DNA from: Hyphomicrobiales bacterium
GTDB lineage: Bacteria > Pseudomonadota > Alphaproteobacteria > Rhizobiales > Xanthobacteraceae
DNA: 50,207 nucleotides
Direction of reading: 5' to 3'
NCBI GenBank assembly: GCA_017305715.1
Contig: JAFKKG010000044.1
Coordinates: 1 to 50,207, forward strand
Position numbers and translations under genes: made by a program. Position 1 is the first letter of the stretch. Each line of letters opens with the position of its first letter. Positions 9,143 through 31,564 of the stretch are shown piece by piece. The notes under the pieces were generated by a model. It worked only from the letters and a program-made list of their open reading frames with translations, had not been told where the DNA came from and ran no database searches.

Positions 9143-9149
9143 AGGAACG

Positions 9150-9662: not shown

Positions 9663-9807
9663 GGTCCGCCCCCTTTTGAACCCACCAAATCCTACGGCGC
9701 TCGGCGGGCAATTGCCATTCACCAAACCGTGCGGCGGGCCAAGCAAGACGCACACCGCGCCTTGTTCACGCGCACCGGCTTCCAGTCCGTTCGAAAACCT
9801 CCCGGGT

Positions 9808-10752: not shown

Positions 10753-10762
10753 TGAAGAGGCA

Positions 10763-11074
10763 TCAGTAATAACGGGGTATCGGTCCGTTGTGTAGGGTCT
10801 TTCGTCCGGACAGGTCGAACAGGACCTCGTCGACATAGCACCAGCCCCAGCCTTCCGGCGGATCGTAGCCTTCGATCACGGGATGGCCGGTGGCATGGAA
10901 GTGCGCGGTCGCGTGCCGGTTCGGGGAATCGTCGCAGCAGCCGACATGGCCGCAGCTACGGCAGATCCGCAGATGCAGCCACTTGCTGCCGCTCTTGAGG
11001 CATTCCTCGCAGCCGAGCGCGCTCGGCGTGACGTCCTGGATACCGGCGATGTGGCGACAACCCTTTGAACTCAT
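10763..11074 (-). CDS. UBP-type zinc-finger protein
   Basis: A 103-residue stand-alone UBP/BUZ zinc finger. The ligand set appears complete: C..H near residue 6, CEEC, then W.HLRICRSCGHVGCCDD and HATAHFHATGHPV. In eukaryotes this domain binds the free C-terminus of ubiquitin; its role in bacteria is not established. The C-terminal YDPPEGWGWCYVDE is also typical of the family. The gene lies 36 bases after a cNMP-domain flavoprotein gene and 10 bases before a secreted hydrolase gene. Linkage of this finger with a thioredoxin-reductase-like protein is seen in other bacteria to my knowledge, suggesting a working pair. Confidence 0.9.
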   Translation of the reverse strand: MSSKGCRHIAGIQDVTPSALGCEECLKSGSKWLHLRICRSCGHVGCCDDSPNRHATAHFHATGHPVIEGYDPPEGWGWCYVDEVLFDLSGRKTLHNGPIPRYY

Positions 11075-11110: not shown

Positions 11111-12817
11111 CTATAGCGCAGGCTTCGAACCGTCGGCGAGAAACCCGTGCAATGCCGCCACCACCTGGGCGCCCTCGCCGATCGCGCCGCCGACCCGCTT
11201 GACCGAACCGGAGCGGACGTCGCCGACCGCGAACACGCCGGGCACCGTGGTTTCCAGCAGCGGCACCGGACGCCCGCCATCCTGTCCGTTCTGAACGCCG
11301 GTGAGCACAAAGCCGGCGCGATCGACCCTAACGCCGCAACCTTCGAGCCAGCCGGTCGCGGGATCGGCGCCGACGAACAGAAAGAGATTGCGGGTGTCGA
11401 AACTCTGCACCTCGTCCGGCGCCAGGCGGCTGCGCCAGCGCACCCGCCGCAGCGAAGCGTCCTCGCCCTCAAGGCCGACCACTTCGGCATTGAAGATCAA
11501 TTCGATGTTGTCGGTCGCTTCGATGCGCTCGATCAGATAATGCGACATGCTGGCGCCGAGGCCGCCGCCGCGGATGATCATGTAGACTTTTCGCGCGTGG
11601 GTGGACAGAAACACCGCGGCCTGTCCGGCTGAATTGCCGCCGCCGACCAGCACGACATCCTGATCCTTGCACAGCCTGGCCTCGATCGGCGAGGCCCAGT
11701 ACCAGACGCCGCGGCCCTCATAGGCGTCGAGGTTCTCGATCTCGGGCCGGCGGTAGCGCGCGCCGCTCGCGACCACGATCGATTTCGCCCGCAATGACTG
11801 GCCGCATTCGGTCGCCAGCGCGAACAGGCCATCGGGCTTCGAGCAATCCAGCGATCTGATCGAGACCGGGATCAGCATGTCGGCGCCGAATTTCTGCGCC
11901 TGGTTGTAGGCGCGCCCGGCCAGCGCCTGGCCGGAAATGCCGGTCGGGAATCCCAGGTAATTCTCGATTCGCGCGCTGGCGCCGGCCTGGCCGCCGAAGG
12001 CGCGGGAATCGAACACCGCGACCGACAAGCCTTCGGATGCGGCATAGACCGCCGTGGCAAGCCCGGCCGGGCCGCCGCCGACCACGGCGACGTCGTAGAG
12101 CTTGTCATTGGCATGGTTGGTGATCATGCCCATGGCGAGCGCCAGCGAGGTTTCCGATGGATTGCGCAGCACGGTACCGTCGGGACAGACGACCAGCGGC
12201 AGATCGCTGCGCTCGGCCGCATAACGCGCGACGAGATCGGCGGCATCCTTGTCGGTCTCGGGATCGAGCAGGTGATGCGGCTGGCCGTTGCGCGTCAAAA
12301 AATTCTGCAGGCGCGCCATGTCGCCGAGCAAGGCCGGGCCGATCAGCACCGGTCCGCCGGCGTTGCCCTGGATCAGGCTGACGCGGCGCAGAACCAGCGC
12401 GCGCATGATGCGTTCGCCGAGATCGGCTTCGGCCATCAACAGCGCGCGCAGCCGGTCCGGCGGAATCAGCAACGTCTCGACATCGCCCTCGGCATGGCCG
12501 TCGACCAGCGCCACACGGCCCGACAGTTGTCCGATCTCGGCGAGAAATTGCCCCTCCCCCTGATCGATCACGGGCGTGACATGGCCAAGCCCGTCGCGCA
12601 GCGTGATCGCGACATGACCCGACAGCACCACGAACATGCCGGGACCAGGCTTGCCGGTCTCGAACAGCGCCTCGCCATGCCTAAAGCTGCGCAATTCGCC
12701 GAACCGGCGCATGCGCCCGATCTCGTGGGGGGTCAGCGTCGGAAACGTCTGCTCGAGGCGCGGAAAGGCCGAGGTATTCTGGCCGGTCGCCGGACCGGTT
12801 GCCGTGTCTGCACTCAT
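11111..12817 (-). CDS. Cyclic-nucleotide-binding-domain thioredoxin-reductase-like flavoprotein
   Basis: 568 residues in three parts: a cNMP-binding-type beta-roll (about 25-145, e.g. HGEALFETGKPGPGMFVVLSGHVAI), a thioredoxin/glutaredoxin-like middle (about 150-235), and a thioredoxin-reductase-like C-terminal half with an FAD motif (VVGGGPAGLATAVYAASEG) and an NADPH motif (VLVGGGNSAGQAAVFLS). The redox-active CxxC of true thioredoxin reductases is replaced: the segment reads GVWYWASPIEA, with neither cysteine. Disulfide chemistry through that site is therefore unlikely, and the electron acceptor is unknown. The ATG at 12817 is preferred to the TTG at 12829. It leads the cluster with the UBP finger and the secreted hydrolase. 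Confidence 0.9.
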   Translation of the reverse strand: MSADTATGPATGQNTSAFPRLEQTFPTLTPHEIGRMRRFGELRSFRHGEALFETGKPGPGMFVVLSGHVAITLRDGLGHVTPVIDQGEGQFLAEIGQLSGRVALVDGHAEGDVETLLIPPDRLRALLMAEADLGERIMRALVLRRVSLIQGNAGGPVLIGPALLGDMARLQNFLTRNGQPHHLLDPETDKDAADLVARYAAERSDLPLVVCPDGTVLRNPSETSLALAMGMITNHANDKLYDVAVVGGGPAGLATAVYAASEGLSVAVFDSRAFGGQAGASARIENYLGFPTGISGQALAGRAYNQAQKFGADMLIPVSIRSLDCSKPDGLFALATECGQSLRAKSIVVASGARYRRPEIENLDAYEGRGVWYWASPIEARLCKDQDVVLVGGGNSAGQAAVFLSTHARKVYMIIRGGGLGASMSHYLIERIEATDNIELIFNAEVVGLEGEDASLRRVRWRSRLAPDEVQSFDTRNLFLFVGADPATGWLEGCGVRVDRAGFVLTGVQNGQDGGRPVPLLETTVPGVFAVGDVRSGSVKRVGGAIGEGAQVVAALHGFLADGSKPAL

Positions 12818-12898
12818 CTCGCCACCCAATTGGAATTTTCAGAGTTTGCGGAACATGTTTCGGGCCGCCCGGCGAGCGGCCAGGAATTTTCCTGTCCG

Positions 12899-13099
12899 CT
12901 ACTGGCCCGGCTTGTCGCCGCCCGCGTCATCTAGGAAGACATCGGCGGTTTCGGAAGATGCGGCGGCTTCGTCGTTGCGCCCTCGCGCCTGCGACTTCCG
13001 CCGTTTGAGGTTTTCACGCAGCGCCAGTTTCAACCGCTGGTGTCGCGAATCCTTCACGTCGCGGCCGGTCCTTTCACGCTTGTCCTGATCGTTCTGCAT
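12899..13099 (-). CDS. Small basic conserved-looking protein
   Basis: 66 residues, strongly basic in the middle (RLKLALRENLKRRKSQARGR) with an acidic tail. This core looks like a short protein of Rhizobiales that I have seen annotated as hypothetical; function unknown. The longer open frame upstream runs antisense through the tRNA-Thr gene and is not coding, so I chose the ATG at 13099. The helix is predicted amphipathic by eye and could bind nucleic acid, which is only a guess. Confidence 0.65.
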   Translation of the reverse strand: MQNDQDKRERTGRDVKDSRHQRLKLALRENLKRRKSQARGRNDEAAASSETADVFLDDAGGDKPGQ

Positions 13100-13416
13100 T
13101 CCCGGGCCTTGTTGCCTGACGCCGTCGCGGCGTCTTGTGTTTTCGCCGGGCATATTGGATTTCGTACCGCTGCCGCGCAATCGACGCCCGGACGGATGCT
13201 TCGTCGGCACCGCCCTCCGGGCCGGCCCGCGGCCGAAATGGAGCCGGATCGGCCCCGAGTTGAGCCGATTGGCGGGGAAGCAGGGCAGCCACCCAGATTT
13301 TTGCCCGTTTTGGGCCCTTTCCGGCCCTGCCGCGTGCTTGCGCCTGAGGGGCCCTTGTGGCAAGAACCGCCCGCCTGTAGGGGCCTTTTGGGGCCGATTC
13401 TTCGGATACCGGGCAT
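13100..13416. other. Gene-free gap between small ORF and tRNA-Thr
   Basis: About 317 GC-rich bases. Open frames here on both strands read into the tRNA and show no family similarity. It should contain the tRNA promoter, but I cannot point to convincing -35 and -10 boxes. Confidence 0.5.
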
Positions 13417-13491
13417 GCTGCCGTAGCTCAGTGGTAGAGCACTCCATTGGTAATGGAGAGGTCGACAGTTCAATCCTGTCTGGCAGCACCA
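13417..13491 (+). tRNA. tRNA-Thr (anticodon GGT)
   Basis: A 75-base cloverleaf. The acceptor stem GCTGCCG pairs with TGGCAGC, the D arm contains GCTCAGTGGTAGAGC, the anticodon stem CTCCA/TGGAG encloses the loop TTGGTAA with anticodon GGT, and the T arm is ACAGTTCAATCCTGT-like. The discriminator A and an encoded CCA (13489-13491) complete it. The gene's 3' end served as an integration site: its last bases are repeated at 15615-15640. Confidence 0.97.
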
Positions 13492-13492
13492 T
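13467..13492 (+). repeat. attL-type repeat: 3' end of tRNA-Thr
   Basis: These 26 bases, starting AGTTCAATCC and ending GCAGCACCAT, are identical to 15615-15640. They cover the T arm, acceptor 3' strand and CCA, the usual crossover segment for tyrosine integrases. A broken integrase gene starts 81 bases downstream. Confidence 0.9.
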
Positions 13493-13572
13493 CCATCCTA
13501 TTGGCTGCATTGATTTTCCTGGAAATTCGGTCCTGAGGGCCACACGGACCAATGGTTTCCTTGAAGTTTTCT

Positions 13573-13914
13573 ATGGCTAAACGAGCCCGCTCCAGCGTTC
13601 CCCAATTCCGAATCCGCGTCCCCGCGAAGGTCATCGACCGACTACGCGGCAGGCATGTCCTGCTCAACCTTTCAAACCGCAACGATCCGCCTTGTATCAA
13701 AGTCGCGAAGATCGCTGACGATGTCTCGTTCAGCCTCGAAACAACTGATCGCATCATCGCGGAGGCACGGTCGGCGAACGCACTGGGCCACCTCAAGCGG
13801 CTTTTCGAACTGACGGAAGCGTGCACCTTTCGCACCAAGAACTGGTTGCGCTGAGCGGCGAGACTTACCGGCTCTACAACGAAATCCACGGCGACAATCC
13901 CGGTGAACCAAGCT
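13573..13914 (+). pseudogene. Frameshifted N-terminal part of a phage-type integrase
   Basis: The first frame (13573-13821) reads MAKRARSSVPQFRIRVPAKV and goes on with LRGRHVLLNLSNRNDPP to FELTEA. The matching continuation is in another frame from 13821: HLSHQELVALSGETYRLYNE, then IHGDNPGEP. Together they resemble the N-terminal, arm-binding and core-binding part of a group of Rhizobiales site-specific integrases (my recollection of the family). The junction implies loss of about one base near 13820. Similarity ends near 13914, far short of the catalytic domain, so the gene is dead. Its position directly after a tRNA-Thr attachment site fits the family. Confidence 0.7.
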
Positions 13915-13990
13915 GTGAACGCCTTACAGGCGATGTGCCGGGCATCCGATCAGTATTCGGCTGGGGCGTTGACAACCGGAAGCCGACAAG

Positions 13991-14134
13991 AATCCGGCCG
14001 ATGCAATCAAGGTCAAATCGGAGAAGAAAATCCGGACCCGATCGAAGGGCTTCACCTGTTACACCGGTTGCCGGATTGCTGAGGCGCTACAGCTTCGTAA
14101 ATCGCGGAGATCAAGAGGTTTGATGATATTTTGA
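13991..14134 (+). pseudogene. Fragment of a tyrosine recombinase catalytic domain
   Basis: The frame contains YTGCRIAEALQL at 14060-14095, which matches Box I of tyrosine recombinases (consensus YTG.R..E.L.L), with the catalytic Arg codon at 14072-14074. The frame stops at 14132 and no Box II (H.LRH, Y) follows. It may be the decayed continuation of the integrase remnant just upstream or a second element. Only the motif supports it. Confidence 0.5.
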
Positions 14135-14351
14135 GTCCACGAATGTTGGCGTGACTTTCGGGCAGCGGATTGCGGCCAGCCAAGAAAACTCCGGAAAATC
14201 CATACATTTCGCTGTTGCGCAATAGCTACGCAGGCCTGGGATTCAGTGTAACCATGCACTTCCGGGGCGGAAACGGGGGGGCATTCACTTGTGGGATGCA
14301 TGGGTAGTGCGGTACTGCTCAACCAAGCAATCAGGCTGGAGGTTGGGCCGA

Positions 14352-15113
14352 ATGCGTTACAAAGTTTTGAGTCTATTGGCAGCGGCGTTGAGCCTCGGCG
14401 TCGCGCGAGCCGCTTCGGCCGCCGACATGCCGGTCAAAGCCCCGGTCGCTGCGCCGGTTTACAATTGGACCGGCTTTTATATCGGCGGAAACATCGGCTA
14501 CGGTTGGGGAAGATCCGACAATGATTTCGCCGACGCGGTTACCGGTTTTGCGACGCTCCCCATGGGTAGCGACACCACAAAAGTGAATGGCGTTATCGGC
14601 GGCCTTCAGGCTGGTTACAACTGGCAGACCGGCTCGTTTGTTTTCGGGCTTGAGACCGACCTTCAGCTGTCGGGACAGAAAGGAAGCGGAGCGGCAATCT
14701 GTCCGGCGGCGTCCTGCGGTCCGGGTGGCACGGTCACCCACACTGAACAGCTTACTTGGTTTGGAACGACCCGCGGCCGCTTCGGGTGGGCCTTCAATCG
14801 CTGGTTGATCTATGGAACGGGCGGAGTTGCCTATGGCGCCGTGGAAAGCAGCGGCAGCATGAATTTTTTCATTCCCGTCAGATTGACTGGCCCCTATAGC
14901 GGCTCCGCCACGCGCGCCGGCTGGGTTGCGGGCGCCGGCTTGGAAGGCGCCATAACCCAAAACTGGACTGCCCGTGTCGAGTACCTTTATATCGACTTTG
15001 GTACGGCGAACTTCTCATCGCCAACAACGTTCCCGCTCGCGGCCGGCGCAATTACCGATTCGGTGCACCTGCGCGACAACATCGTCCGTGTTGGATTGAA
15101 CTATCGGTTCTAG
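14352..15113 (+). CDS. Omp25/porin-family outer membrane beta-barrel protein
   Basis: 253 residues with a signal peptide (VLSLLAAALSLGVARAASA) and the family opening YNWTGFYIGGNIGYGWG. Alternating beta strands follow with repeated G-Y-aromatic patterns (GVIGGLQAGYNWQTGSFVFG, TRGRFGWAFNRWLIYGTGGVAYG) and the typical end DNIVRVGLNYRF with terminal Phe. It belongs to the eight-stranded barrels abundant in alphaproteobacteria. GGAGG lies ten bases before the ATG at 14352. It is the only intact gene I see between the two tRNA-Thr repeats, hence a possible cargo gene of that element. A second member of the family is at 25705. Confidence 0.92.
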   Translation: MRYKVLSLLAAALSLGVARAASAADMPVKAPVAAPVYNWTGFYIGGNIGYGWGRSDNDFADAVTGFATLPMGSDTTKVNGVIGGLQAGYNWQTGSFVFGLETDLQLSGQKGSGAAICPAASCGPGGTVTHTEQLTWFGTTRGRFGWAFNRWLIYGTGGVAYGAVESSGSMNFFIPVRLTGPYSGSATRAGWVAGAGLEGAITQNWTARVEYLYIDFGTANFSSPTTFPLAAGAITDSVHLRDNIVRVGLNYRF

Positions 15114-15185
15114 AGCCCCATCGAAGTGGGTAGGGGTACATCCGCCCTTTCACCACGACGATGGTTCTCTCTTCCCGGCCGAGGA

Positions 15186-15320
15186 TCAGGTGTATTCGGA
15201 CTCACTGTCGTGAGCGCGCCAGTTCATCGACTCGTTGATGCGGCGCTGGATCAGTGTTGCGAGCGCTTCGGGGTCATGACTCCCGCCGTTGATGTGGATG
15301 GCCACATTGCCCGAAACCAT
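15186..15320 (-). pseudogene. Probable C-terminal remnant of a phage tail tape-measure-like protein
   Basis: The last 44 codons read GNVAIHINGGSHDPEALATL, then IQRRINESMNWRAHD and an acidic end. The pattern (short beta strand, N-G-G, DPEALA..VQRR.DE) is that of C-termini of tail tape measure proteins in rhizobial prophages, as I remember them. The frame stays open upstream to 15614 and starts with a hydrophobic stretch (VILFNVEFIVIFGLIASG), but that part shows no phage similarity. I treat it as a relic; an intact 142-residue chimera starting at 15614 is the alternative. Confidence 0.45.
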
Positions 15321-15904
15321 GCGGGCATCACCTCCGAAGCGGAGCCGATGGGCGAGCGGCCCGATTTCGCCACGTTTTCCATCAGCCATTCGCGGGACCC
15401 TTTGCTTGAGCTCAGTCGCTTCGGCCCTGCGAAATCCAGCGGCTTGCTTGTCGGCGGCTCCTATCTGCCATGGCACCAAGTCAAGCGAGTATCTTTTCGG
15501 AGCTACCGTCCGGTGATACGACATGCAAATAGCGCCGCACGAAAGTGCCACACAACCTGAAGCAATCAGGCCGAAAATCACAATAAATTCAACGTTAAAC
15601 AGGATCACGACCAAAGTTCAATCCTGTCTGGCAGCACCATTTTTGCCAAGACAATCAACGTTCGTGCTGAAAGCGCTCGGCGCTTCAATGGTATCCGTGC
15701 CCGGAACGTGGCGGGCAAAATCCGTCAAGCACAGTATGTGGATCGCGGCGGACGTCCCAAATCCGCCGTGCTCTCTGCCGGTTAAAACGACGGGATGCGG
15801 GCGAGTGTTGTTCATTCCGCGCGCCCCTAACCCGTTCGGTATATTGTCCTGATTTCGACTGCACTCGAATTTACCGGCTCGATGACTCGCCGGGATTGAC
15901 GGGA
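15321..15904. other. Gap spanning the right end of the element
   Basis: Contains the 26-base tRNA repeat at 15615-15640. On both sides I find no frame with convincing protein similarity. The DNA between 15641 and 15904 is noticeably less GC-rich in codon third positions of any frame than neighbouring genes, which fits non-coding sequence. Confidence 0.4.
15615..15640 (+). repeat. attR-type repeat: second copy of the tRNA-Thr 3' end
   Basis: Exact 26-base copy of 13467-13492. The preceding and following bases differ from the tRNA copy, so the match is bounded precisely at the tRNA 3' part. The distance between repeats is 2148 bases. Confidence 0.88.
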
Positions 15905-16084
15905 ATGCAGGAATACCTCGCTTACGTGCTTGACCATGACGGCCACATCAAGCACCGAATTGGCCTGATCTGCGGAGACGAACAAGCCGCTAAAGAGCGC
16001 GCAAAGCAGTTGGTCGACCGTCATGACGTGGAGCTATGGCAAGGCTCCAGAAAGATCGCCACGTTCCACCGCCTCAACAGCTAG
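15905..16084 (+). CDS. Small hypothetical protein
   Basis: 59 residues: MQEYLAYVLDHDGHIKHRIG, then a segment with DEQAAKERAKQLVDRHDVELW and a final RKIATF. I have seen similar short proteins annotated as hypothetical in Bradyrhizobium, often in several copies per genome. The alternating hydrophobic pattern suggests a beta-beta-alpha-beta fold; no function is known. ATG at 15905 is preferred to the TTG at 15896. Confidence 0.65.
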   Translation: MQEYLAYVLDHDGHIKHRIGLICGDEQAAKERAKQLVDRHDVELWQGSRKIATFHRLNS

Positions 16085-16096
16085 CACCGTCCATAT

Positions 16097-16249
16097 ATGC
16101 CCCCAAAGCAGCAGCCGACTGCGGGCGAGCGGCTACCTTGCCCCAAATGCGAGATGAAGATGGTTTCAACCGCTCGGCAGCCCACCGGGGAAAAGACCTT
16201 TGAATGCCTGCGCTGCGGCTACACTGAAACGCGCAAGGTCGACGAGTAA
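16097..16249 (+). CDS. Tiny zinc-ribbon protein
   Basis: 50 residues with two CxxC knuckles: LPCPKCEMKM near residue 15 and FECLRCGYTETRKV near 36, a classic zinc ribbon. The spacing of 18 residues between knuckles fits one zinc site. It begins 12 bases after the preceding small ORF stops, so the two may be co-transcribed. Zinc ribbons of this size can bind nucleic acid or proteins; nothing more specific is visible. Confidence 0.7.
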   Translation: MPPKQQPTAGERLPCPKCEMKMVSTARQPTGEKTFECLRCGYTETRKVDE

Positions 16250-16440
16250 GGCCGCCTCTCGAGGCTCGCCAACGGAGACATCGCGCTGGCGCCGCTGGAC
16301 CCAGAAATCGCCGAGCGAGATCAGAACCGGATAGCTTGCGGCCGCCGCGAACCCCGCTGCCAGCTCATCGTCTGGCGTACTGCCTGCCGTTCGGAAAATG
16401 CTGGCTCGATCAGAGCCGATCGAAACTGCAATGGAGCAGA

Positions 16441-16995
16441 TCAGGCCACGCCCACAGCCGTCCTGCTTTTCCGGCGATAGGCGATCGTGCCGAGGCCGAC
16501 GAAGCCCAGGATCATCATCGCCCAGGTGGACGGCTCGGGAACCGCGCTTGCGATGGTCAGGGATGCATCCGGGCTGACGCCGATCCGGGTGATGTCGATT
16601 CCGAATACGCCAAGCTGCGCAAAGGTGCCGTCGGCGAAGAATATCGTTCCGCTTCCGGTGCCGCCATGGCCATCGTCATAACCGAGTTCGATGAGGTCGT
16701 AGTACAATGGGGTTTGCGGGTTGGACGGGTCGAAATTGACGTCGAAATGAGGTTTGAAGTTGGAGGGGCCGCATGAAAACCCGGCGGCCCCTCCACTGAG
16801 CGAACAATTGCTCAACGCAACGCCAAGAACGTCAGTGGTGATGAAATCGGTGGATACGAAGCTGAAGCTGAAATTGTTGTTTCCGAGCTGGCCGTTGAGA
16901 CTTCCCGAAGCGGAGTAGGTCACCGCCGACGCCTGAGCGCCGGTGCAAATCGCGCAAACTGACAGTGCTGCAACGAGGGCTGCCAAACGACGCAT
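16441..16995 (-). CDS. PEP-CTERM sorting-domain protein
   Basis: 184 residues: signal peptide (LAALVAALSVCAICTGAQASA), a Gly/Asn/Ser-rich secreted domain of about 130 residues without recognised fold, and the C-terminal PEP-CTERM tail AVPEPSTWAMMILGFVGLG followed by IAYRRKSR. The tail is the exosortase recognition signal: after export the protein would be cut near PEP and released or anchored at the surface. Two cysteines (SNCSLSGGAAGFSCGPS) may form a disulfide. The exosortase itself is not in this window. It lies directly downstream of the kinase/regulator pair on the same strand (145-base gap). Confidence 0.88.
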   Translation of the reverse strand: MRRLAALVAALSVCAICTGAQASAVTYSASGSLNGQLGNNNFSFSFVSTDFITTDVLGVALSNCSLSGGAAGFSCGPSNFKPHFDVNFDPSNPQTPLYYDLIELGYDDGHGGTGSGTIFFADGTFAQLGVFGIDITRIGVSPDASLTIASAVPEPSTWAMMILGFVGLGTIAYRRKSRTAVGVA

Positions 16996-17140
16996 ACGAC
17001 ATCTCCAATCCTGAAGTGAAAGCCGTTAAAGAATATCGTTCGGAGTCTATCGAGGCGTTCGCGCTGATCAATCCGTCGATTTCGACAGATGGACGTTTCA
17101 GGCGCCGTGAATGCCGAAAGATTCGGCGGGCGACGTTGGC

Positions 17141-18925: not shown

Positions 18926-18932
18926 GGCGGCA

Positions 18933-19532: not shown

Positions 19533-19572
19533 AGCGCTGCACCTTTCCGAACCGCACCGGCGTGACCGACCC

Positions 19573-19620
19573 TGAACTTACCGCCCACGAAACTTGCCGC
19601 CCAAGAAACTTACCGCCCAG
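19573..19620. repeat. Three tandem 16-base repeats upstream of the response regulator
   Basis: Units TGAACTTACCGCCCAC, GAAACTTGCCGCCCAA and GAAACTTACCGCCCAG follow one another without spacing (core AACTTRCCGCCCA). They sit 40 bases upstream of the response regulator start and about 225 bases upstream of the divergent PEP-CTERM gene, in a 313-base gap (19533-19845) with no other visible gene. A regulator-binding array is a reasonable reading; a chance microsatellite is the alternative. Confidence 0.7.
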
Positions 19621-19845
19621 GACATGGGTGAGCTGACGGCGAACCGGGCCGGCTTCCGGCCCAAATGACTGATCATGAGGCGGAACTGCAAAAAATCAAT
19701 GAGCGACGATCGAGTATGCCCCAGCCTGAGCCGATTGCGACCTAGCGAAATCGATAGATAGCAGAATCGCCAGATTGTGCACCCCAACTCCCGGTTGGAT
19801 ATTCCGGCGTCATTAAATCCAAGAATACGGAGCAGGGAATTTAAT

Positions 19846-20613: not shown

Positions 20614-20631
20614 TCTGCGACCAGAAGATTC

Positions 20632-22273: not shown

Positions 22274-23269
22274 ATGCATGAAGAGGGGATCAACGGGTTG
22301 AGGCCGCACGCTCTCGCATTGATCTTCTGCCTTTTCGTCGCGGCGCCGGCTTCGGCGCAAAGCGATCCCGCGCCGGCGTTGCCTAAGCTTACCCTGCCGG
22401 CGCCGACCGGCGCGGTTGGCGATCGATGCCGCAAGATCGAAGCCGGCGATCTGCTCGTGCCGGTGTCGCTGCGGCGGACCTTCCATGATGATTTCGACGT
22501 GCATCCGCTGGCCGGCGCCAGGTGGGTGCCGCACTACGCCGGTGGCGCCGCCTGGCCGGAGGCGCAGTACTGGGGCGGCAAGGGTTCCGATTTCAAGCGC
22601 AAGACTGCCTGGAACGGTGAACAGCAGATCTATGTCGATCCACGCTATGGCGGGAGCAATACGACACCGCTGGGACTCGATCCGTTCCGGGTCAAGGAGG
22701 GCATTCTTACGATCGTCGCCAGCCGCACGCCGCCTGAACTCAAATCCGTTCTGTTCAACAATGAATACGTCTCGGGCATCCTGACGACGCAGGGCAAATT
22801 CACTCAGAAGTACGGCTATTTCGAAATGCGCTCCAAGATACCGGCCGGCGTCGGCGTTTGGCCGGCGTTCTGGATGCTCGCCGATGACGGCGGCTGGCCT
22901 CCGGAAATCGACGTGATGGAAGGACGCGGACAGCAGCACGACAACATCGTCATGACGACGCATTGGCGGATACCGGCCACTGGCGTCGTCGAACATTGCG
23001 GGTTCGATTTCGCGGTAGCCGATACGAGGAACGAATTCCACAATTATGGCGTGCTGTGGCTGCGCGACCGCATCATCTATTACATCGACCGCAGGCCGGT
23101 GTCGGAAATCAAGGTGCCGGTCGGCTTCGACGCGCCGATGTACATGATCGTCAATTTGGCGATGGGCTCGAAGACCCTGGAGGGCGTCGGATTCGTCGAC
23201 GGCCTGTCGCCGAACGTGGTTGAATTCGATATCGACCGGATTTCGGTCTATCAAATTGATGCATACTGA
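22274..23269 (+). CDS. Secreted glycoside hydrolase family 16 (beta-glucanase type)
   Basis: 331 residues with a signal peptide ending ASA near residue 28 and a GH16 jelly-roll domain. The catalytic motif EIDVMEG gives Glu211 as nucleophile, Asp213 as helper and Glu216 as acid/base; flanking landmarks are GYFEMRSKIPAGVGVWPAFWML and the final DIDRISVYQ. GH16 enzymes of this kind cut beta-1,3- or mixed beta-1,3-1,4-glucans. The Tat-exported GH1 beta-glucosidase next door could finish the breakdown to glucose, which suggests glucan scavenging or trimming of the cell's own beta-glucan. A TTG at 22298 with AGAGGGG eight bases upstream is an attractive alternative start. Confidence 0.9.
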   Translation: MHEEGINGLRPHALALIFCLFVAAPASAQSDPAPALPKLTLPAPTGAVGDRCRKIEAGDLLVPVSLRRTFHDDFDVHPLAGARWVPHYAGGAAWPEAQYWGGKGSDFKRKTAWNGEQQIYVDPRYGGSNTTPLGLDPFRVKEGILTIVASRTPPELKSVLFNNEYVSGILTTQGKFTQKYGYFEMRSKIPAGVGVWPAFWMLADDGGWPPEIDVMEGRGQQHDNIVMTTHWRIPATGVVEHCGFDFAVADTRNEFHNYGVLWLRDRIIYYIDRRPVSEIKVPVGFDAPMYMIVNLAMGSKTLEGVGFVDGLSPNVVEFDIDRISVYQIDAY

Positions 23270-23329
23270 TTCATTTGCACCGGCCGGGACATGCAAGCCG
23301 GCAGCAACGAGGCTGACGGGAGAACAAAG

Positions 23330-24799
23330 ATGTCCGGAAAATTCTCGCGCCGGCAGTTTACCAAACTGGCGGGCCTCTCCGCGCTCGGCATCGCCGCAGG
23401 CCCGGCGAATGCGGCGACCAAACAAACGCCGGCCGCCGGTCCGCATGCCCCGGCCCGTTTTCCGAAAGACTTCGCATGGGGGACCGCGACATCGGCCTAT
23501 CAGATCGAGGGCGCCGTGGCCGAGGACGGCCGCGGCCGCTCGATCTGGGATACGTTTGCCCACACCCCCGGCAAGATCGAGGACAAGACCACCGGCGACC
23601 GCGCCAACGAGCATTATCATCGCTACAAGGAAGACGTTCAGCTCATCAAAGCGCTCGGCGCCAAACATTACCGGTTTTCGATCGCATGGCCGCGGGTGTT
23701 TCCGGAAGGCACCGGCAAGCCCAATCCCAAGGGGCTCGACTTCTATAACCGGCTGATCGACGAACTCCTGGCAAACGGCATCGAGCCCTACGCCACGCTG
23801 TATCATTGGGACCTGCCGCAGGCGCTGCAAGACCGCGTCGGCGGCTGGCAATCCAGCGACACGTCAAAGGCGTTCGCGGATTACGCGGGCTATGTCGCCG
23901 AACGCGTGACCGACCGCGTCAAATATGTCTTCACGCTGAACGAGGCCGGACGCTTCCTGAATTTCGGCTATGGCTGGGGCATCGACGCGCCCGGCCTCAA
24001 GCTGCCGGCGGCGGAATTGAACCAGGCACGGCACAACGTGGTGCTCGGCCATGGCCTGGCGGTGCAGGCGATCCGCGCCAAAGGACGCGCCGGCACCAAG
24101 GTCGGCCCGGCCGAGAACATCGCAGCCTGCGTGCCGGTCTATGATACGCCCGAAAATGTCCGCGCCGCCGAGATGGCGACGCGCGAACTGAATGCGGGGC
24201 TGCTCGGCGTCATGCTGGAGGGCAAATACACCGACGGCTTCCTCGAATATTCCGGGAAGGACGCCCCGAAATTCACGGCTGAAGAGCTGAAGATCATCGG
24301 CTCGCCCAATGATTTCGTCGGCCTCAACATCTACGCGCCGCAATTCTACATCGCCGCGTCTGACAAGAAGCCGGGCTGGTCGGTGCTGCCCTTTCCCGGC
24401 TCGTTCCCGCACATGAATTCCGAATGGCTGCGGATCGGCCCGGAGGTGATCTATTGGGCGCCGCGGCTTGCGGCGAAAGTCTGGAACATCAAGACCCTCT
24501 ACATCACCGAGAACGGCACCTCGTCGGAAGACAAGGTGCATGCCGACGGCAAGATCTACGATCTCGACCGCATCATGTTCCTGCGCAATTATCTGCAGCA
24601 ATTGCAGCGCGCGGTGGCCGAGGGCGTACCGGTCCGCGGCTATTTCCTGTGGAGCCTGATGGACAATTTCGAATGGATCTTCGGCTACGAAAAACGCTTC
24701 GGGGTCGTCCACGTGGATTTTGAAACCCAGAAGCGGACGCCGAAACTCAGTGCGGCGTTTTACCGCGACGTCATCGCGCGCAATGCGATCGGGGCCTGA
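23330..24799 (+). CDS. Tat-exported family 1 beta-glucosidase
   Basis: 489 residues. The N-terminus SRRQFTKLAGLSALGIAAG is a twin-arginine signal ending in ANA near residue 28, so the folded enzyme should act in the periplasm, unlike most GH1 members, which are cytoplasmic. The barrel has the family start FAWGTATSAYQIEGA, acid/base Glu205 in FTLNEAG and nucleophile Glu394 in YITENGTS. The usual NEP is NEA here. Near the end, GYFLWSLMDNFEWIFGY and KRTPKLSA are classic. GGGAG precedes the ATG at 23330. It follows the GH16 gene by 60 bases without a terminator, so both are probably one transcript. Confidence 0.93.
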   Translation: MSGKFSRRQFTKLAGLSALGIAAGPANAATKQTPAAGPHAPARFPKDFAWGTATSAYQIEGAVAEDGRGRSIWDTFAHTPGKIEDKTTGDRANEHYHRYKEDVQLIKALGAKHYRFSIAWPRVFPEGTGKPNPKGLDFYNRLIDELLANGIEPYATLYHWDLPQALQDRVGGWQSSDTSKAFADYAGYVAERVTDRVKYVFTLNEAGRFLNFGYGWGIDAPGLKLPAAELNQARHNVVLGHGLAVQAIRAKGRAGTKVGPAENIAACVPVYDTPENVRAAEMATRELNAGLLGVMLEGKYTDGFLEYSGKDAPKFTAEELKIIGSPNDFVGLNIYAPQFYIAASDKKPGWSVLPFPGSFPHMNSEWLRIGPEVIYWAPRLAAKVWNIKTLYITENGTSSEDKVHADGKIYDLDRIMFLRNYLQQLQRAVAEGVPVRGYFLWSLMDNFEWIFGYEKRFGVVHVDFETQKRTPKLSAAFYRDVIARNAIGA

Positions 24800-24805
24800 A
24801 CGCGC

Positions 24806-25042
24806 TCAATCATATCGTGAGCGCTGCGGCACCGGGATCGAAGCGTGATGAGCAGACAGGCGGTTTGTCTTGATTGCCACAGTCGTGGCGGGTTCGTGCC
24901 GCAGGTTTCGCGATGATTCGTGACTGCTGAACGTGGCGGCGGCGCTGAGCAGCAGCACGACATATACGCCAATCACACCGGTGACCCATCGCCAATAAAC
25001 ATGACGGCTGTCAGGGATGAGGTTTTCGATTAAACGGCGCAT
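24806..25042 (-). CDS. Small single-pass membrane protein
   Basis: 78 residues: a short cytoplasmic start (MRRLIENLIPDSRHVYWRW), one membrane helix (VTGVIGVYVVLLLSAAATF) and a polar tail. GAGGAGG lies six bases before the ATG at 25042, a very strong ribosome binding site that argues for a real gene. It converges on the GH1 gene with a six-base gap and diverges from the XRE-type regulator. No family recognised. Confidence 0.65.
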   Translation of the reverse strand: MRRLIENLIPDSRHVYWRWVTGVIGVYVVLLLSAAATFSSHESSRNLRHEPATTVAIKTNRLSAHHASIPVPQRSRYD

Positions 25043-25139
25043 CGCGGCCTCCTCAGGCGTGAGTGCGCCGCGTATAGCCGGGCATCCCGACCCCGGTGTG
25101 TGACCTACCGCACAGAAATCGCTTGAAGACGGAGAACAC

Positions 25140-25460
25140 GTGACCGGCCTGGAATTGAAGAAGCTGCGCGAAGACCTCGGAGAGGCGATCGGCCGCCCCC
25201 TGACCGTTGCCGACATGGCCAAGCTCTGCAAACTGCCGCCCAAGGACGGCGCCGACACCATTCGCAAATGGGAAGTCACCGGCCCGACCGGTCCCGTGGC
25301 CGAACTGCTCCGTATCCTGGCGATGGCCAGCGACCGCTATCCGATCCTGGAAATGTTCAACGTGTTCGATCGCCATGACGTCGCCGAAAAGGATCGGCCG
25401 GCGCGCCGGCAGGCGTTCCGCGAACAGATGCGCAGCGACGTGCGGCGGCGCATTGGTTAA
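25140..25460 (+). CDS. XRE-like helix-turn-helix protein
   Basis: 106 residues with a GTG start behind GGAG. The HTH segment is TVADMAKLCKLPPKDGADTI followed by RKWEVTGPTGPVAELLRIL, the pattern of short XRE-family proteins in alphaproteobacteria (ADTIRKWE recognition helix). The basic C-terminal tail (PARRQAFREQMRSDVRRR) may help DNA binding. It ends just before a cluster of TTAAGC sites and an outer membrane protein gene that it might regulate. Confidence 0.8.
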   Translation: MTGLELKKLREDLGEAIGRPLTVADMAKLCKLPPKDGADTIRKWEVTGPTGPVAELLRILAMASDRYPILEMFNVFDRHDVAEKDRPARRQAFREQMRSDVRRRIG

Positions 25461-25563
25461 GCAAAGCTTGCGCGCACCTCGCCCGAGCAAGGCTGATTTT
25501 AAGCCTTCCTTAGGCTTTGCTTAGGGCGCTGTTAAGCACACAAAATAGCACTTCATTAAGCAC
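25457..25563. promoter_or_regulatory. Cluster of TTAAGC sites upstream of omp gene
   Basis: TTAAGC occurs at 25457, 25499, 25532 and 25556; the last two are TTAAGCAC spaced 24 bases. A small hairpin AAGCCTTCCTTAGGCTT lies at 25501-25517. The region precedes the outer membrane protein gene at 25705 and is AT-rich compared with its surroundings. Operator function is a guess. Confidence 0.4.
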
Positions 25564-25704
25564 AAAAAACGTTTGTTCCCCAATAGGTTGGGTTATCAAA
25601 CGGTGTGCCCGGCAAGTGACAGCATTTTATTCAAAAGCTGTCTAACTGATCGCCATGGACGGCGCCGGCATGCGGTGCCTCCCAACGAATTTGCCGGAGA
25701 CCCC

Positions 25705-26433
25705 ATGATGAAGAAGTTCCTGCTCGCTACCGTCGCCCTCGCAGCCCTTGGCGCGACGGCCCCGGCCCTTGGCGCTGATCTTGGCGCGCGGCCCTACTAC
25801 AACAAGGCGCCGGCCTATGCGGCTCCGCTCTACAACTGGACCGGCTTCTATCTCGGCGGCCATCTCGGCGGCGCCTTCTCCGGCAGCAACAATTTCAACG
25901 GCCTGGTGCTCAGCGACTACAGCGCCCGCCTGCTCGGCGGCGTGCAGGCCGGTGCCGACTATCAGTTCGCGCCGAACTGGGTCGTCGGCGCCGAGGGCCA
26001 GTACAGCTGGCTCGGCAACAGCAACCTCAATGCGATCTTCCCGAACGGCCTCGTCTATAACAACAACCAGCGTGCGATCGCTTCGATCACCGCCCGCCTC
26101 GGCTACACCTGGGGACCGGGCATGGTCTACGTCAAAGGCGGCTATGCCTATTCCGACAACAGCGAAACCCTGAGATTTGCGGGCGTTCCTGTCGGCTTCG
26201 CGCTCGATGGCAATCACAGCAATGGCTACACCGTCGGTGCCGGCGTCGAATACATGTTCGCCCCGAACTGGTCCGCCAAGGCCGAGTACATGTATTACGA
26301 CTTCGGCAGCACCCGCTTCGTGGCCCCGGTCGCGCTGGCTCCCTTCGGCTCCTGGCGTAACGACGAGCATACGTTGAAACTGGGTGTCAATTATCGCTTC
26401 AACTTCGCAGCGCCGGTCACCGCGCGTTACTGA
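25705..26433 (+). CDS. Omp25/porin-family outer membrane beta-barrel protein
   Basis: 242 residues: signal peptide (KKFLLATVALAALGATAPALGA), short linker, then the family start YNWTGFYLGGHLGGAFSG and alternating strands to the end LKLGVNYRFNF. Most of the strands show the same order as in the protein at 14352, yet sequence identity outside the motifs looks low. CCGGAGA precedes the double ATG at 25705/25708. A strong terminator follows. Confidence 0.93.
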   Translation: MMKKFLLATVALAALGATAPALGADLGARPYYNKAPAYAAPLYNWTGFYLGGHLGGAFSGSNNFNGLVLSDYSARLLGGVQAGADYQFAPNWVVGAEGQYSWLGNSNLNAIFPNGLVYNNNQRAIASITARLGYTWGPGMVYVKGGYAYSDNSETLRFAGVPVGFALDGNHSNGYTVGAGVEYMFAPNWSAKAEYMYYDFGSTRFVAPVALAPFGSWRNDEHTLKLGVNYRFNFAAPVTARY

Positions 26434-26455
26434 TCGCTTCTACAGGGGGGGCGCG

Positions 26456-26484
26456 AAAAGGCCGGCTTGACGCCGGCCTTTTTT
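26456..26484 (+). terminator. Rho-independent terminator
   Basis: Perfect 11-base stem AAAAGGCCGGC / GCCGGCCTTTT with a five-base loop and a run of six T, 22 bases after the outer membrane protein gene. Confidence 0.92.
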
Positions 26485-26594
26485 CATGGCGCCCGCCGAA
26501 AATCGTGAAAAGCGTTCGTATTTTCCAAAGTTATTAACCGGGTACCACGATACTGCCGCGTGGGGATTCATTCAGGGAAACGGGGCGGCGGCAG

Positions 26595-28733
26595 ATGGCG
26601 TTTGGCATCGGAAGATTTCGGCTCAAGGGTTTCAGCCTTCCTCGATTCGGCGTCAGGGGCAGCCTGTTTGCCGCCTTCGCCGTCATCGCGGGCATGGCGA
26701 TCGTCATCAGCGCCGGGGCGGGCTTCGTGCTGAACCATCTCGGCGGCGCGATCACCGACCTCAGCGGACGGGATATTCCCCGCCTTGCCGCCAGCCTGCA
26801 ATTGTCGGCGGAGAGCGCCAGCCTAGCCAGCCAGGGGCCGGGATTGCTGGCCTCACGCAGCGAGGAGACGCTGAACGAACGTTCCAAGAAGATGCAGGAA
26901 GCGTTGCAGGTCATCCTGCACAAGCTCGGCGAGATCACCCGATTCGGCGCCAACAAGGAGACGGTTTCGGCCCTCACCGAGACGGTGAAGAACATCGAGG
27001 ACATGATCAAGAGCCTCGGCGGCGCGGCGCGCGAGCGGCTGGAAACCGGCGCCCAGCACGAAAAACTGTATGAAGCGCTGCGCACGGCGCAGGCCGCGTT
27101 CGTCAAGGCCGCAGCCCCCGCGATGGTCGACGCGCAAACCCAGCTCAACGGCATTTTCGGCGCCGCCAATTTCAACCAGGACGAAGCCACCAGGGCGGAG
27201 AAAACCGTCGAGCAGATCAGCGAGATCATCGCCGCCGGCAATCTGACGGCATTCAACATGATGGCCGCCCTTTCATCCGAGAGCAGCGACACGCTCGAGA
27301 CCATCGAGAAGCAGACGCGCACCGCACAACAGCGCCTGAAATCCAATCTCGACCAGTTGCCGAAGGGCTCGCTGACGACGGCGCTGGGCAACGCCACCAA
27401 GGCCCTGCTGGCGCTGGGCGAAGGCAAGAGCGGCGTCTTCAAGGTCCGCCAGAAGGAACTGGATGCCGCCGATTACGGCCAGACCATCTTGGAGGAAACC
27501 CGCAAGCTCAATGTCGGCCTCGGCATCAGCGTGCAGCAACTGGTCGATGGCGTGCGCAAAGAGACCGATGCTGCGACCTTGCAGGCGGGCCAGGAGATTT
27601 CGCTGGCCACCACCGTCATGCTCGGCCTCGGCGCGGCCACGCTGGTCGGTTCGATCCTGTTCGTCTGGCTCTATGTCGGCGGCAACATCCTGCGCCGCAT
27701 CCACAGCCTGCAGCGTTCGATGCAGCTGTTGTCCGACGGCGACCTCGAATCCGAAATCTATCAATCGAGCCAGAAGGACGAGATCGCGGCCATGGCCAGT
27801 TCGCTGCATGTGTTCCGCGAGAGCATGATCCAGAGCCGCGCGCTCACCGCCGACCAGGACAAGGACCGCCTCGCCAAGTCCGAACGCGCCGCCCGCATGG
27901 AAGCCCGCATCGTCGAGTTCGAAGCCACCGTCCGCATCGCGCTGGAGAGTTTGCAGGAAGCCGCCGGCTCGATGCAGACCACCGCGCAGAGCATGTCGGC
28001 GACCGCCGATCAGTCCAGCGCGCTGGTGAGCGCGGTGGCCTCCGCCGCCGAGGAAACCTCGGTCAACGTGCAGACCGTGTCGTCGGGCACCGAGGAACTG
28101 TCCTCGTCGATCGAGGAAATCGGCCGTCAGGTCGTCACCTCGGCCGAAATCGCCCGCAAGGCGGTCGAGGAAGCCGGCGCCACCGATGCCACCATGCAGG
28201 GGCTAGCGGACAATGCCGGGCGCATCAGCGTGGTGGTCGACCTGATCCAGACCATCGCCTCGCAGACCAATCTGCTGGCGCTGAACGCCACCATCGAAGC
28301 CGCGCGCGCCGGTGAAGCCGGCCGCGGATTCGCCGTCGTCGCCTCCGAGGTGAAGAACCTCGCCACCCAGACCGCGAAGGCCACCGACGAGATCCGCCAG
28401 CAGATCGCCAGCATGCAGACGGTGACGACATCGGCGGTATCGGCGATCCGCAGCATCGGCACCACGATCGGCGAGATCAACGACGTCACGACCGCAATCG
28501 CCGCCGCCGTCGAGGAGCAGGGTGCGGCAACCCGCGAGATCGCGCGCAACATCTCGCACGCCGCCGGCGGCACCAGCGAGGTCTCCAGCAACATCGTCGG
28601 CGTCTCCTCAGCCTCGGCCGAAGCCGGAACCGCCGCCAGCGAGGTCTTGACCGCCTCCGGCGCGCTCCGCCGCGAGGCCGACATACTGCGCGCGGAAATC
28701 GACGCGTTCCTGCAAAATATCCGGGCGGCGTAA
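26595..28733 (+). CDS. Methyl-accepting chemotaxis protein
   Basis: 712 residues: membrane helix near 22-48, a periplasmic helical sensor domain of about 290 residues (50-335), second membrane helix [20 protein letters not shown] near 340, HAMP domain about 360-415, and the cytoplasmic coiled-coil signalling domain about 440-700. The hairpin tip that contacts CheA and CheW is intact: [20 protein letters not shown], then [18 protein letters not shown] near residues 553-590. The sensor domain has no ligand signature I recognise; it resembles large helical-bimodular receptors. No che genes are nearby, so it is an orphan receptor. There is no C-terminal CheR-tether pentapeptide (ends LQNIRAA). 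Confidence 0.92.
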
Positions 28734-28743
28734 AGGGTCGTCC

Positions 28744-28822
28744 GTCATTCAGGGGCACGCGCCAGCGTGAACCCGGAATCTCGAGCTTCCGGGTTCTATG
28801 CTTCGCATAACCCCGGAATGAC
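28744..28822. repeat. Small palindromic element, relative of 9065-9142
   Basis: Shares the outer GTCATTC / GGAATGAC ends and the inner ACCCGGAATCTCG and ATGCTTCGCAT hairpins with the copy at 9065-9142. Lies between the chemoreceptor and MBL-fold genes. Confidence 0.7.
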
Positions 28823-28918
28823 GGCGCGGGCGTACCGTCCGCAACCCATGCCTTTTATCCCGACCGGGGCCTGCTTTTTCGGCTAGCGCCGCGCCGATTG
28901 TGCGGTTATGCCGGTACC

Positions 28919-29980
28919 ATGCACAAGAAAACAGACCCCGTTCAGTCCTCCGCCGAAGCCCTGCGATACCCCTGGGAAACCCACCCCGGCCAGGATCAGG
29001 TCGTCGAGGTGATGCCGGGCGTCCTGTGGGCGCGGCTGAAACTGCCGTTCCGGCTCAACCATGTGAACGTCTATCTGCTCGCCGACGGCGACGGCTGGGC
29101 GATGGTCGATTCCGGTTTCGGCGATGAGGAAACCATCGCGGCCTGGACCAAGCTGTTCGAGGGCCCGCTCCGGCACGTGAAAATCTCCCGGCTGATCGTG
29201 ACCCATTCGCATCCCGACCATGTCGGTCTCGCCGGGTGGATCACCGAGCGCTTCGCCTGTCCGCTACAGATGTCGCAGGTCGAATATCTGCAATCGATCT
29301 ATCACCAGAACCGCGGCACCGAGGAGCGGCGCAACGCGCAGCGGCTGTTCTTCCGCCGTCACGGCATGGACGAGAGCCTGACCGACACGCTGCTCAGCCG
29401 CGGCCAGGATTATCTGAAACAGGTGTCGGTGCTGCCGCCGGCCTATCACCGCATTTCGCATGGCGACGAGATTTCGATCGGCACGCGGCGCTTCAAGGTC
29501 ATCACCGGGGGCGGCCACGCGCTCGACCAGGTGATGCTGTATTGCGCCGCCGACAAGCTGTTTCTTTCCGCCGACCAGGTCCTGAGCAAGATCTCGCCCA
29601 ATGTCAGCGTCTGGGCGGTCGAGCCGGAGCAGAACTCGCTCGGCGAATATCTGGCCTCGCTGGCGAGCCTGACCACCACGTTGCCCTATGACGTGATGGT
29701 GCTGCCCGGCCATGGCGTGCCGTTCTACGGCCTCAAGACCCGGATCAAGCAGCTGGCCGACCATCACGAGGACCGCTGCCGTCTGATCGCCGAAGCCTGC
29801 CGGACCGTTCCGCAGACCTCGAAGGAGCTGGTCCCGGTGGTGTTCCACAAGCATGTGCTGGACGCCCACCAGATGGGCTTTGCCGCCGGCGAGCTGATCG
29901 CCCACGTCAACTACATGCTGGTCGAAGGCCGGCTGATCTCCGAAGTGACCGACGGCGTGCTGCGTTTCCGGACCACTTGA
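28919..29980 (+). CDS. MBL-fold metallo-hydrolase
   Basis: 353 residues. The metal-binding motif THSHPDH gives His96, His98, Asp100 and His101; later ligands fit GGGHALDQV and LFLSADQVL, and LPGHGVPF supplies the last histidine. The fold is that of metallo-beta-lactamase-like hydrolases with a C-terminal extension of about 80 residues (LACTB2-like winged-helix region), typical of a Rhizobiales subgroup that hydrolyses thioesters or other esters; the exact substrate is unknown. The ATG at 28919 is preferred to a GTG at 28898. Confidence 0.88.
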   Translation: MHKKTDPVQSSAEALRYPWETHPGQDQVVEVMPGVLWARLKLPFRLNHVNVYLLADGDGWAMVDSGFGDEETIAAWTKLFEGPLRHVKISRLIVTHSHPDHVGLAGWITERFACPLQMSQVEYLQSIYHQNRGTEERRNAQRLFFRRHGMDESLTDTLLSRGQDYLKQVSVLPPAYHRISHGDEISIGTRRFKVITGGGHALDQVMLYCAADKLFLSADQVLSKISPNVSVWAVEPEQNSLGEYLASLASLTTTLPYDVMVLPGHGVPFYGLKTRIKQLADHHEDRCRLIAEACRTVPQTSKELVPVVFHKHVLDAHQMGFAAGELIAHVNYMLVEGRLISEVTDGVLRFRTT

Positions 29981-30194
29981 CGCCCGGCCTCGACATTCGA
30001 GCCTTCCCCACCCGCGGCGTCGATTTGACGCCGTCGTGCTGATCCGCCCGGCGGGCATCCTACAACGCCGCCTCGCCGCCAATCGCGCGATCAAGGAACT
30101 CGACTCCCAGCCGGACCGGCATTGCCCCACCGGCGATCCATGGCTGTTCGGCTTCGCGGGCAAAATACCGGGACCATGAATCGCGCCTAGCGTA

Positions 30195-30208
30195 TTGATC
30201 GGGATCAA
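30195..30208. promoter_or_regulatory. FNR/FixK-type box upstream of hemA
   Basis: TTGATCGGGATCAA is a perfect palindromic match to the TTGAT-N4-ATCAA consensus of FNR, FixK and related Crp/Fnr activators. It is centred about 133 bases before the hemA ATG, in a 354-base gap (29981-30334) with no other gene visible. Low-oxygen control of hemA through such boxes is established in Rhodobacter, Rhodopseudomonas and Bradyrhizobium. Confidence 0.8.
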
Positions 30209-30334
30209 GATTTGCCCTGCCTCCGGTGCATCCCGGGGGTCCGGTCAAATGCCGGATTTCACATGGACATCAAACCTGGAAAAGCTCTAAAAAGAGGCAC
30301 GCCGCTCCGGCCGGTTCCCGTTTCAGGTCTCGTG

Positions 30335-31564
30335 ATGGATTACAGCAAATTCTTCTCCGCCGCCCTCAACCGCGTGCATGACGAGCGCCGTTACCGGGTT
30401 TTCGCCGACCTCGAGCGGATCGCAGGCCGCTTCCCGCATGCGGTCTGGCATTCGCCTGCCGGCGCCCGCAACGTCGTGATCTGGTGCTCCAACGACTATC
30501 TCGGCATGGGCCAGCATCCCAAGGTGGTCGGCGCCATGGTCGAGACCGCCACGCGCGTGGGCACCGGCGCCGGCGGCACCCGCAACATCGCCGGCACCCA
30601 TCACCCGCTGGTGCAGCTCGAGGCCGAACTGGCCGATCTGCACGGCAAGGAAGCGTCACTGTTGTTCACGTCCGGCTACGTCTCGAACCAGACCGGCATC
30701 GCGACCATCGCGAAACTGATTCCGAACTGCCTCATTCTCTCCGACGCGCTCAACCACAATTCGATGATCGAGGGCGTTCGCCAGGCCGGCTGCGAGCGCC
30801 AGATTTTTCGTCACAGCGACGTCGCGCACCTCGAGGAACTGCTGATCGCCGCAGGCCCCGACCGGCCGAAGCTGATCGCCTGCGAGAGCCTTTATTCGAT
30901 GGACGGCGATGTCGCGCCGCTGGCGAAAATCTGCGATCTGGCCGAAAAATATGGCGCGATGACCTATGTCGATGAAGTCCACGCGGTCGGCATGTACGGC
31001 CCGCGCGGCGGCGGCATCGCCGAGCGCGACGGCGTCATGCACCGCATCGACGTGCTGGAAGGCACGCTTGCAAAGGCGTTCGGCTGCCTCGGCGGCTATA
31101 TCGCCGGCAACGCCGACATCATCGACGCGGTCCGCTGCTACGCGCCGGGCTTCATCTTCACGACCGCGCTGCCGCCGGCGATCTGTTCGGCCGCGACCGC
31201 CGCGATCCGCCATTTGAAAACATCGAACTGGGAGCGCGAGCGCCACCAGGACCGCGCCGCCCGCGTCAAGGCGATCCTGATCGCCGCCGGCCTGCCCGTG
31301 ATGTCGAGCGACACCCATATCGTGCCGCTGTTCGTCGGCAATCCCGAGCAATGCAAAACGGCGTCCGACATCCTGCTCGAAGAGCACGGCATCTACATCC
31401 AGCCGATCAACTATCCGACGGTCGCCAAGGGAACCGAGCGCTTGCGGATCACGCCCTCGCCCTACCATGACGACGCCCTGATCGACGGGCTCGCCGACGC
31501 GCTGCTGCAGGTCTGGGAACGGCTCGGCCTGCCGCTGAAGCAGAAGTCGCTGGCGGCCGAGTAA
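30335..31564 (+). CDS. hemA: 5-aminolevulinate synthase
   Basis: 409 residues, the usual length for Bradyrhizobium HemA. It condenses glycine and succinyl-CoA to 5-aminolevulinate with PLP, the first step of haem and tetrapyrrole synthesis by the Shemin (C4) route. Landmarks: start [64 protein letters not shown], and the PLP lysine Lys247 in [10 protein letters not shown]. The frame extends upstream with an ATG at 30263, but the family start at 30335 is chosen; the Shine-Dalgarno sequence there is weak (AGGT). The FixK-type box upstream suggests induction at low oxygen. Confidence 0.97.

Follow-up and report, generated by a model that had tools for sequence, protein, structure and literature searches.

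The window, the whole stretch of 50,207 nucleotides analysed here (Hyphomicrobiales bacterium, family Xanthobacteraceae, contig JAFKKG010000044.1 of assembly GCA_017305715.1), carries a tRNA-Thr(GGT) gene whose 3' end has an exact copy downstream at a spacing of 2,148 bases (Table 1). Between the two copies, which we call cores, lie the remains of a tyrosine integrase gene, one open gene for an outer-membrane β-barrel protein, the terminus of a phage tail gene and a short stretch alignable to the right ends of larger genomic islands. A long chromosomal block that is found in whole or in part at the same tRNA in relatives follows further downstream.

Table 1 Features of the tRNA-Thr(GGT) locus (positions are those of the window)
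Feature	Position	Strand	Basis
tRNA-Thr (GGT), intact, CCA encoded; integration target	13417..13491	+	ARAGORN
attL core (25 nt up to the tRNA end; 26th base probably chance)	13467..13492	+	repeat and relatives' cores
Left inner motif, TTGATTTT	13510..13517	+	spacing after the core equal to that in the ten larger islands listed
Integrase relic, N-terminal piece (roughly residues 10-133 of the 562-aa G005 integrase), frame-broken	13552..13913	+	alignment to G005
Integrase relic, middle piece, following an extensive internal deletion that measures 575 nt in the alignment	13929..14055	+	alignment
Integrase relic, third piece, T-G-x-R region (earlier the 'Box I' fragment)	14052..14100	+	alignment
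Outer-membrane β-barrel gene, open, 253 aa, PF13505	14352..15113	+	GGAGG at 14338-14342 just upstream
Relic of phage tail protein gene, last ~50 aa	15186..15338	-	PHROG 1259, E 1.7e-10
Right end of island	15533..15614	+	alignable to right ends in G014, G005 and G282
Right inner motif, inverted copy of the left with one base changed (AAATTCAA for AAAATCAA)	15585..15592	-	
attR core, exact copy of the tRNA 3' end	15615..15640	+	repeat and relatives' cores
Conserved chromosomal block, presumably GH16-GH1-barrel-MCP-MBL-hemA	22274..31564	+	whole or part downstream of the tRNA in relatives

The original prediction had described an exact 26-base duplication of the tRNA end with flanks that diverge at once, and a direct-repeat search recovered precisely this: similarity extends in neither direction and the remainder of the tRNA is not repeated. 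An exact pair of 26-mers 2.1 kb apart is not plausibly a product of chance. In the larger islands of two relatives (G005 and G014) the base following the core is not identical at the two ends, so the core probably comprises the 25 nt that end at the tRNA CCA (13491) and the shared 26th base (T) is probably a coincidence.

Directly after the left core come three collinear pieces of a single integrase gene (13552-14100 overall), homologous to the integrase of the larger islands. The gene has lost roughly its C-terminal quarter and a large internal piece, and it has suffered several small frame-breaking changes. The integrase had rightly been called broken, but the recombinase Box I fragment once listed as a separate item is the third piece of the same gene; its T-G-x-R region is what we take to be Box I. 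A cognate integrase was not found elsewhere in the window's genome, where the best other match is 39% identical, and phage records searched with the integrase gave no match. At sites invariant in ten larger islands, the relic differs at 5/108, 7/129 and 4/20 sites in codon positions 1, 2 and 3, against 4/112, 4/133 and 2/22 for the intact integrase of G134; since several intact copies look similar, this test dates nothing. Another contig of the same genome (locus L169 on C2) holds an open related integrase, 39% identical, at about 9102-10145 beside a tRNA-Ser(CGA) gene (10699-10788), probably a second integrative element with another target.

The phage-tail relic, thought probable at the outset, is borne out by both profile and alignment. 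Along 50 aligned columns it is 78% identical to the C-terminal end of a tail protein of 1037 aa, and the family concerned, PHROG 1259 ('baseplate hub subunit and tail lysozyme'), is matched at 1.7e-10 by the relic-bearing open reading frame and at 2.6e-106 by the G005 protein. In G005 the tail protein of the larger islands lies at locus L036:4619-7732. As in those islands, the tail gene adjoins the integrase on the opposite strand. The left end, the integrase pieces, the tail-gene terminus and the right end have the order and strand seen in G005 and G014; in alignment, window pieces 13336-13909, 13929-14055, 14052-14100, 15160-15306 and 15572-15647 fall in sequence along G005 (the right end at locus L070). 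An inverted pair of motifs of the TTGATTTT type lies just inside the cores of each of the ten larger islands that were compared; in G227 and G250 the right-end variant is TTGATTCT. The window has the pair too, its right copy with one base changed within the homologous right end. These inverted inner motifs are possible integrase-binding sites.

The larger islands emerged when 60 genomes, the window's own included, were searched with window positions 12800-16300. A match was obtained in 59 of them, the distant ones mainly through the tRNA itself, and in G005 and G014 the window's left end, tail-gene piece and right end were scattered over 22 and 42 kb. Next, 265 genomes of the genus were queried with the tyrosine integrase of G005, a protein of 562 aa. 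Matches at E 1e-30 or better occurred in 84 genomes, and 12 encode an integrase at least 70% identical over most of its length. In every one of these 12 the integrase starts 46-68 bases past a copy of the core, and in 11 it is an open frame of 554-568 aa, the exception being G280, where it is in two pieces. Nine islands could be followed from core to core and measure 14.4-42.1 kb (G005, G014, G070, G134, G190, G282, G280, G227 and the first unit of G138, whose second core has one mismatch); those of G250, G218 and G201 were covered in part. The larger islands whose presence in relatives the original prediction had named as support do exist, at copies of the same core. Among the 11 other islands examined, 10 have the tail gene beside the integrase; the 14 kb covered of the G201 island gave no tail-gene match. 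The genes identified in the G005 island specify a phage tail protein, a DNA invertase and type IIG restriction cargo, and seven of its proteins scanned against PHROGs included no capsid protein. The larger islands could represent phage satellites or else defence islands that carry a tail.

Integrase fragments 73-84% identical occur in G065, G126 and G224 on stretches away from the tRNA-Thr core, so relics of the family are not tied to this site, which counts against the reading proposed below. The core copy preceding the integrase stands apart from any complete tRNA in G070 and G201, while G138 has an additional core about 21 kb on, for which reason these three loci look like tandem arrays, apparently as expected of island accretion at one tRNA. 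Cores in line number three in G138 (L153-L155), three in G070 (L139-L141) and two in G201 (L159-L161), where the integrase stands behind the second copy.

A different source for the downstream core has to be considered, namely that another tRNA-Thr gene, since decayed, ended there and that no integrative element was ever present. Second copies of this tRNA do occur at the locus in relatives, complete in G069 and partial in G173, G031, G219, G090, G157 and G254. The 50 bases preceding the copy at 15615, however, match the 5' part of the tRNA at 11 positions, inside the range of 9-19/50 at other sites with an att core only, and the DNA immediately before that copy is the right end of the tRNA-Thr island family. 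We regard a decayed tRNA as very improbable and reject it as the source of the copy, which is an att site, as had been proposed. With homologous ends, collinear relics and islands of 14-42 kb for comparison, the view of the 2.1-kb stretch as an eroded integrative element that has kept its att sites and lost most of its DNA is well supported.

With one mismatch allowed, the core pattern occurs in 259 of the 265 genomes of the genus: 211 have one copy and 48 have two or more, some of these far apart or on different contigs. Pairs less than 6 kb apart on one contig were found in 12 genomes, the window included. These two counts, 48 multi-copy genomes and 12 with a close pair, suggest that tRNA-Thr(GGT) may be a busy integration site in this genus. 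When the small elements were compared with proteins of at least 100 aa from the larger islands, those of G068 and G166 held distant integrase remains, while that of G224 had a 25% match to another G014 protein and a right-end motif in common with the tRNA-Thr island family; the other eight gave nothing at E 1e-6. The upstream gene is most similar (92-93%) in G012 and G196, and each has a second core copy. The two cores of G012 are on different contigs, and between those of G196 no match to a larger-island protein was found.

Downstream of tRNA-Thr, the block of genes that we take from their protein sequences to be GH16-GH1-barrel-MCP-MBL-hemA is present in 14 of 34 loci of the genus, whole or to the end of the stretch covered, and it begins about 1 kb after the tRNA in four of them (L045, L047, L049 and L052). 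In the window, attR and the block are separated by about 6.6 kb that the compared relatives lack at this place, which makes this chromosomal flank variable; positions 15640-22270 may be a further acquisition. This interval contains small DUF6894-like and zinc-ribbon genes, two PEP-CTERM-type proteins, a hybrid histidine kinase with a response regulator and an OmpA-like protein, some of these names being our presumed assignments. The DUF6894-like gene at 15896-16084 is a weak match (E 0.061), and four matches to its DNA lie on separate contigs of G012. Only one relative, G138, has a related gene, presumably also of PEP-CTERM type, about 285 bases after its last core (75%).

We infer an empty site at this tRNA. 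The original prediction had looked for strains in which the sequence after 15640 directly follows tRNA-Thr, and none was found in the loci compared by local alignment of the 250 bases after the core. The best scores, 26 (G035), 23 (G032) and 22 (G008), against at most 21 in 30 shuffles each, are a slight excess in a few loci and no real match; with 700 bases, G035 had a 27-base stretch in common with window positions 16231-16258. Genomes with exactly one core (211 of 265) and loci with the native block (14 of 34) were found instead. The collections hold one genome per species, and among these genomes the relic is seen in the window's alone.

The one gene between the cores that had been called intact is indeed open. 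Its product, scored together with a short in-frame extension upstream, matches PF13505 at E 2.2e-19 and 70.7 bits, where the cut-off is 28.7. An AlphaFold2 model (alignment of 28; mean pLDDT 88.8) has eight strands across residues 41-252, and the protein therefore appears complete. Its N-terminus resembles a signal peptide, to judge by eye from its sequence and a predicted helix. Relatives of the barrel occur in all 265 genomes of the genus, the window's own included, but they are distant: among the matches listed, the best-scoring other protein is 52% identical and the highest identity is 55%. A scan across genome contigs gave at most 44% to the barrel by best segment in its best 80 loci. In a quick tree of 86 barrels the protein falls among relatives from the genus with weak support (81-90) and no close ortholog. 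The genome itself holds 22 other matches to the family, 34-49% identical (best-scoring 42%), and a recent copy of one of these paralogues was rejected on that account. Displacement of the native barrel into the island was likewise rejected: the native gene, at 25702-26433, is a different one, which shares 52-84% identity with the corresponding genes of the conserved block and only 31-36% with the barrel of the relic.

Phage origin of the barrel is possible, since phage-encoded barrels exist. Agrobacterium phage Rivra gp27 is 34% identical and a protein on an IMG/VR contig (L277), whose phage-type neighbours were judged by eye, is 36% identical; structure matches were also found in BFVD. A fold search returned generic small barrels (OmpT, OmpA, Ail, NspA) together with phage-encoded ones, with TM-scores of about 0.5 or less on the query, and a sequence search of solved structures with the barrel profile gave no match at E 0.01. 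Against PHROGs, among which a moron of a known phage family would be sought, the barrel had no match at E 0.01, and the quick tree does not place it close to Rivra gp27 or the L277 protein. In the phage (L278), gp27 is annotated as hypothetical and accompanied by an annotated tyrosine integrase; it is possibly a surface-changing gene.

The barrel sits inside the interval between integrase and tail gene, which behaves like a cargo slot in that other genes are found there in G134 and G138 and after the integrase in G201, and it may have come as cargo in this interval. No barrel was found in the nine islands followed from core to core or in the covered parts of the G250, G218 and G201 islands; original cargo would accordingly be a reading of its position. 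A further proposal is that selection actively maintained the barrel as the remainder of the island disappeared, through some effect on the cell surface such as phage adsorption or envelope permeability. In its favour, the frame is open, the N-terminal helix and all eight strands are predicted with the confidence given above, and at the 3-4 small frame-breaking changes per 550 aligned bases counted in the relic a neutral barrel gene would be expected to have 4.2-5.5, with a probability of none of 0.016-0.004 (0.063 if 2 are counted). This calculation assumes that the barrel is as old as the decay and is suggestive only then; the gene may be younger. No relative is near enough for a test of selection, 22 other matches in the same genome suggest redundancy, and a scan for promoters of the sigma-70-like type found none in 13400-15700, where 1.0 would be expected by chance. 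That the gene was kept by selection, as the original prediction had it, is unsupported as stated: a barrel is absent from the nine complete islands, the 11 further small elements with att ends at this tRNA have none between their cores, and the highest identity listed is 55%. We consider selection possible but tentative, and the gene is at most a candidate for kept cargo.

Recent arrival fits equally well, and we hold it with the same reserve. The barrel could have entered the relic late, by recombination or separate transfer, and be intact only because it is young. In favour of this, the gene is absent from the nine complete islands, it occupies the place expected for the C-terminal part of the integrase, and its upstream 250 bases match none of the loci compared. 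Against it, no near-identical donor appears among the matches listed from the 265 genomes, the best 80 scan loci or the paralogues of its own genome; no transposase or insertion repeat was recognised at the edges of the gene.

We propose that the 2.1-kb stretch is an eroded tyrosine-integrase island at tRNA-Thr(GGT), an att-bounded relic of CIME-like form with the barrel perhaps as cargo, and put the probability of this reading at roughly 0.88. An island of the family, which is now known from 12 further species sampled in the genus (11 with an open integrase, nine islands complete), would have integrated into the 3' end of the tRNA and rebuilt the tRNA end. Decay would have come next: most of the island was presumably deleted, and the integrase would have lost its internal piece, its C-terminal quarter and its frame. 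What remained would be two recombination ends, the phage tail-gene terminus and the open barrel gene, and such a relic should be unable to excise by itself. Mobility in trans is conceivable because both ends keep the inverted motifs of the larger islands: should an island of this family enter the cell, it could excise the relic or capture it. We think this unlikely; if true, a lone barrel gene would be spread between species and alter surface or phage-receptor traits.

Several known systems invite comparison. The barrel belongs with the PF13505 proteins of rhizobia by family match and predicted eight-stranded fold, and differs from them in its distance from the listed matches and its seat in a relic island. 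Lom-type morons are outer-membrane barrels carried by phages. With these, Rivra gp27 and the L277 protein, the window gene has in common a position beside phage-type genes, whereas its place in the quick tree and the PHROG result set it apart. The larger tRNA-Thr islands of the genus (G005, G070, G134, G190, G282 and others) have a homologous integrase and tail protein and alignable ends; they differ in their open integrase (two pieces in G280), their size and the lack of a barrel in the nine complete ones. In one study, tRNA-Thr(GGU) in Sinorhizobium meliloti is proposed as an integration hot spot with direct repeats, and the phage-related sequences measure 3.24-88.98 kb, each island studied there having an integrase gene (PMC11476347). 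The isoacceptor is the same and the host is another rhizobium genus; the relic in the window, by contrast, is 2.1 kb long with a broken integrase.

The closest likeness is to a CIME: attL and attR are retained as direct repeats, the element's own integrase is lost, and its seat is the 3' end of a tRNA gene, with several cores in line in G138, G070 and G201 as in accretion. The fit is one of att ends and lost integrase. A CIME would also derive from a conjugative or mobilisable element; on that side, the genes seen in the larger islands are an integrase and a tail protein and, in G005, also an invertase and type IIG restriction. Set against the literature in general terms, the relic is new as an instance and ordinary in mechanism, and it leaves the understanding of such elements unchanged. 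It is a clean end-state of island decay, in which the losses can be read because related larger islands have been sampled from 12 species.
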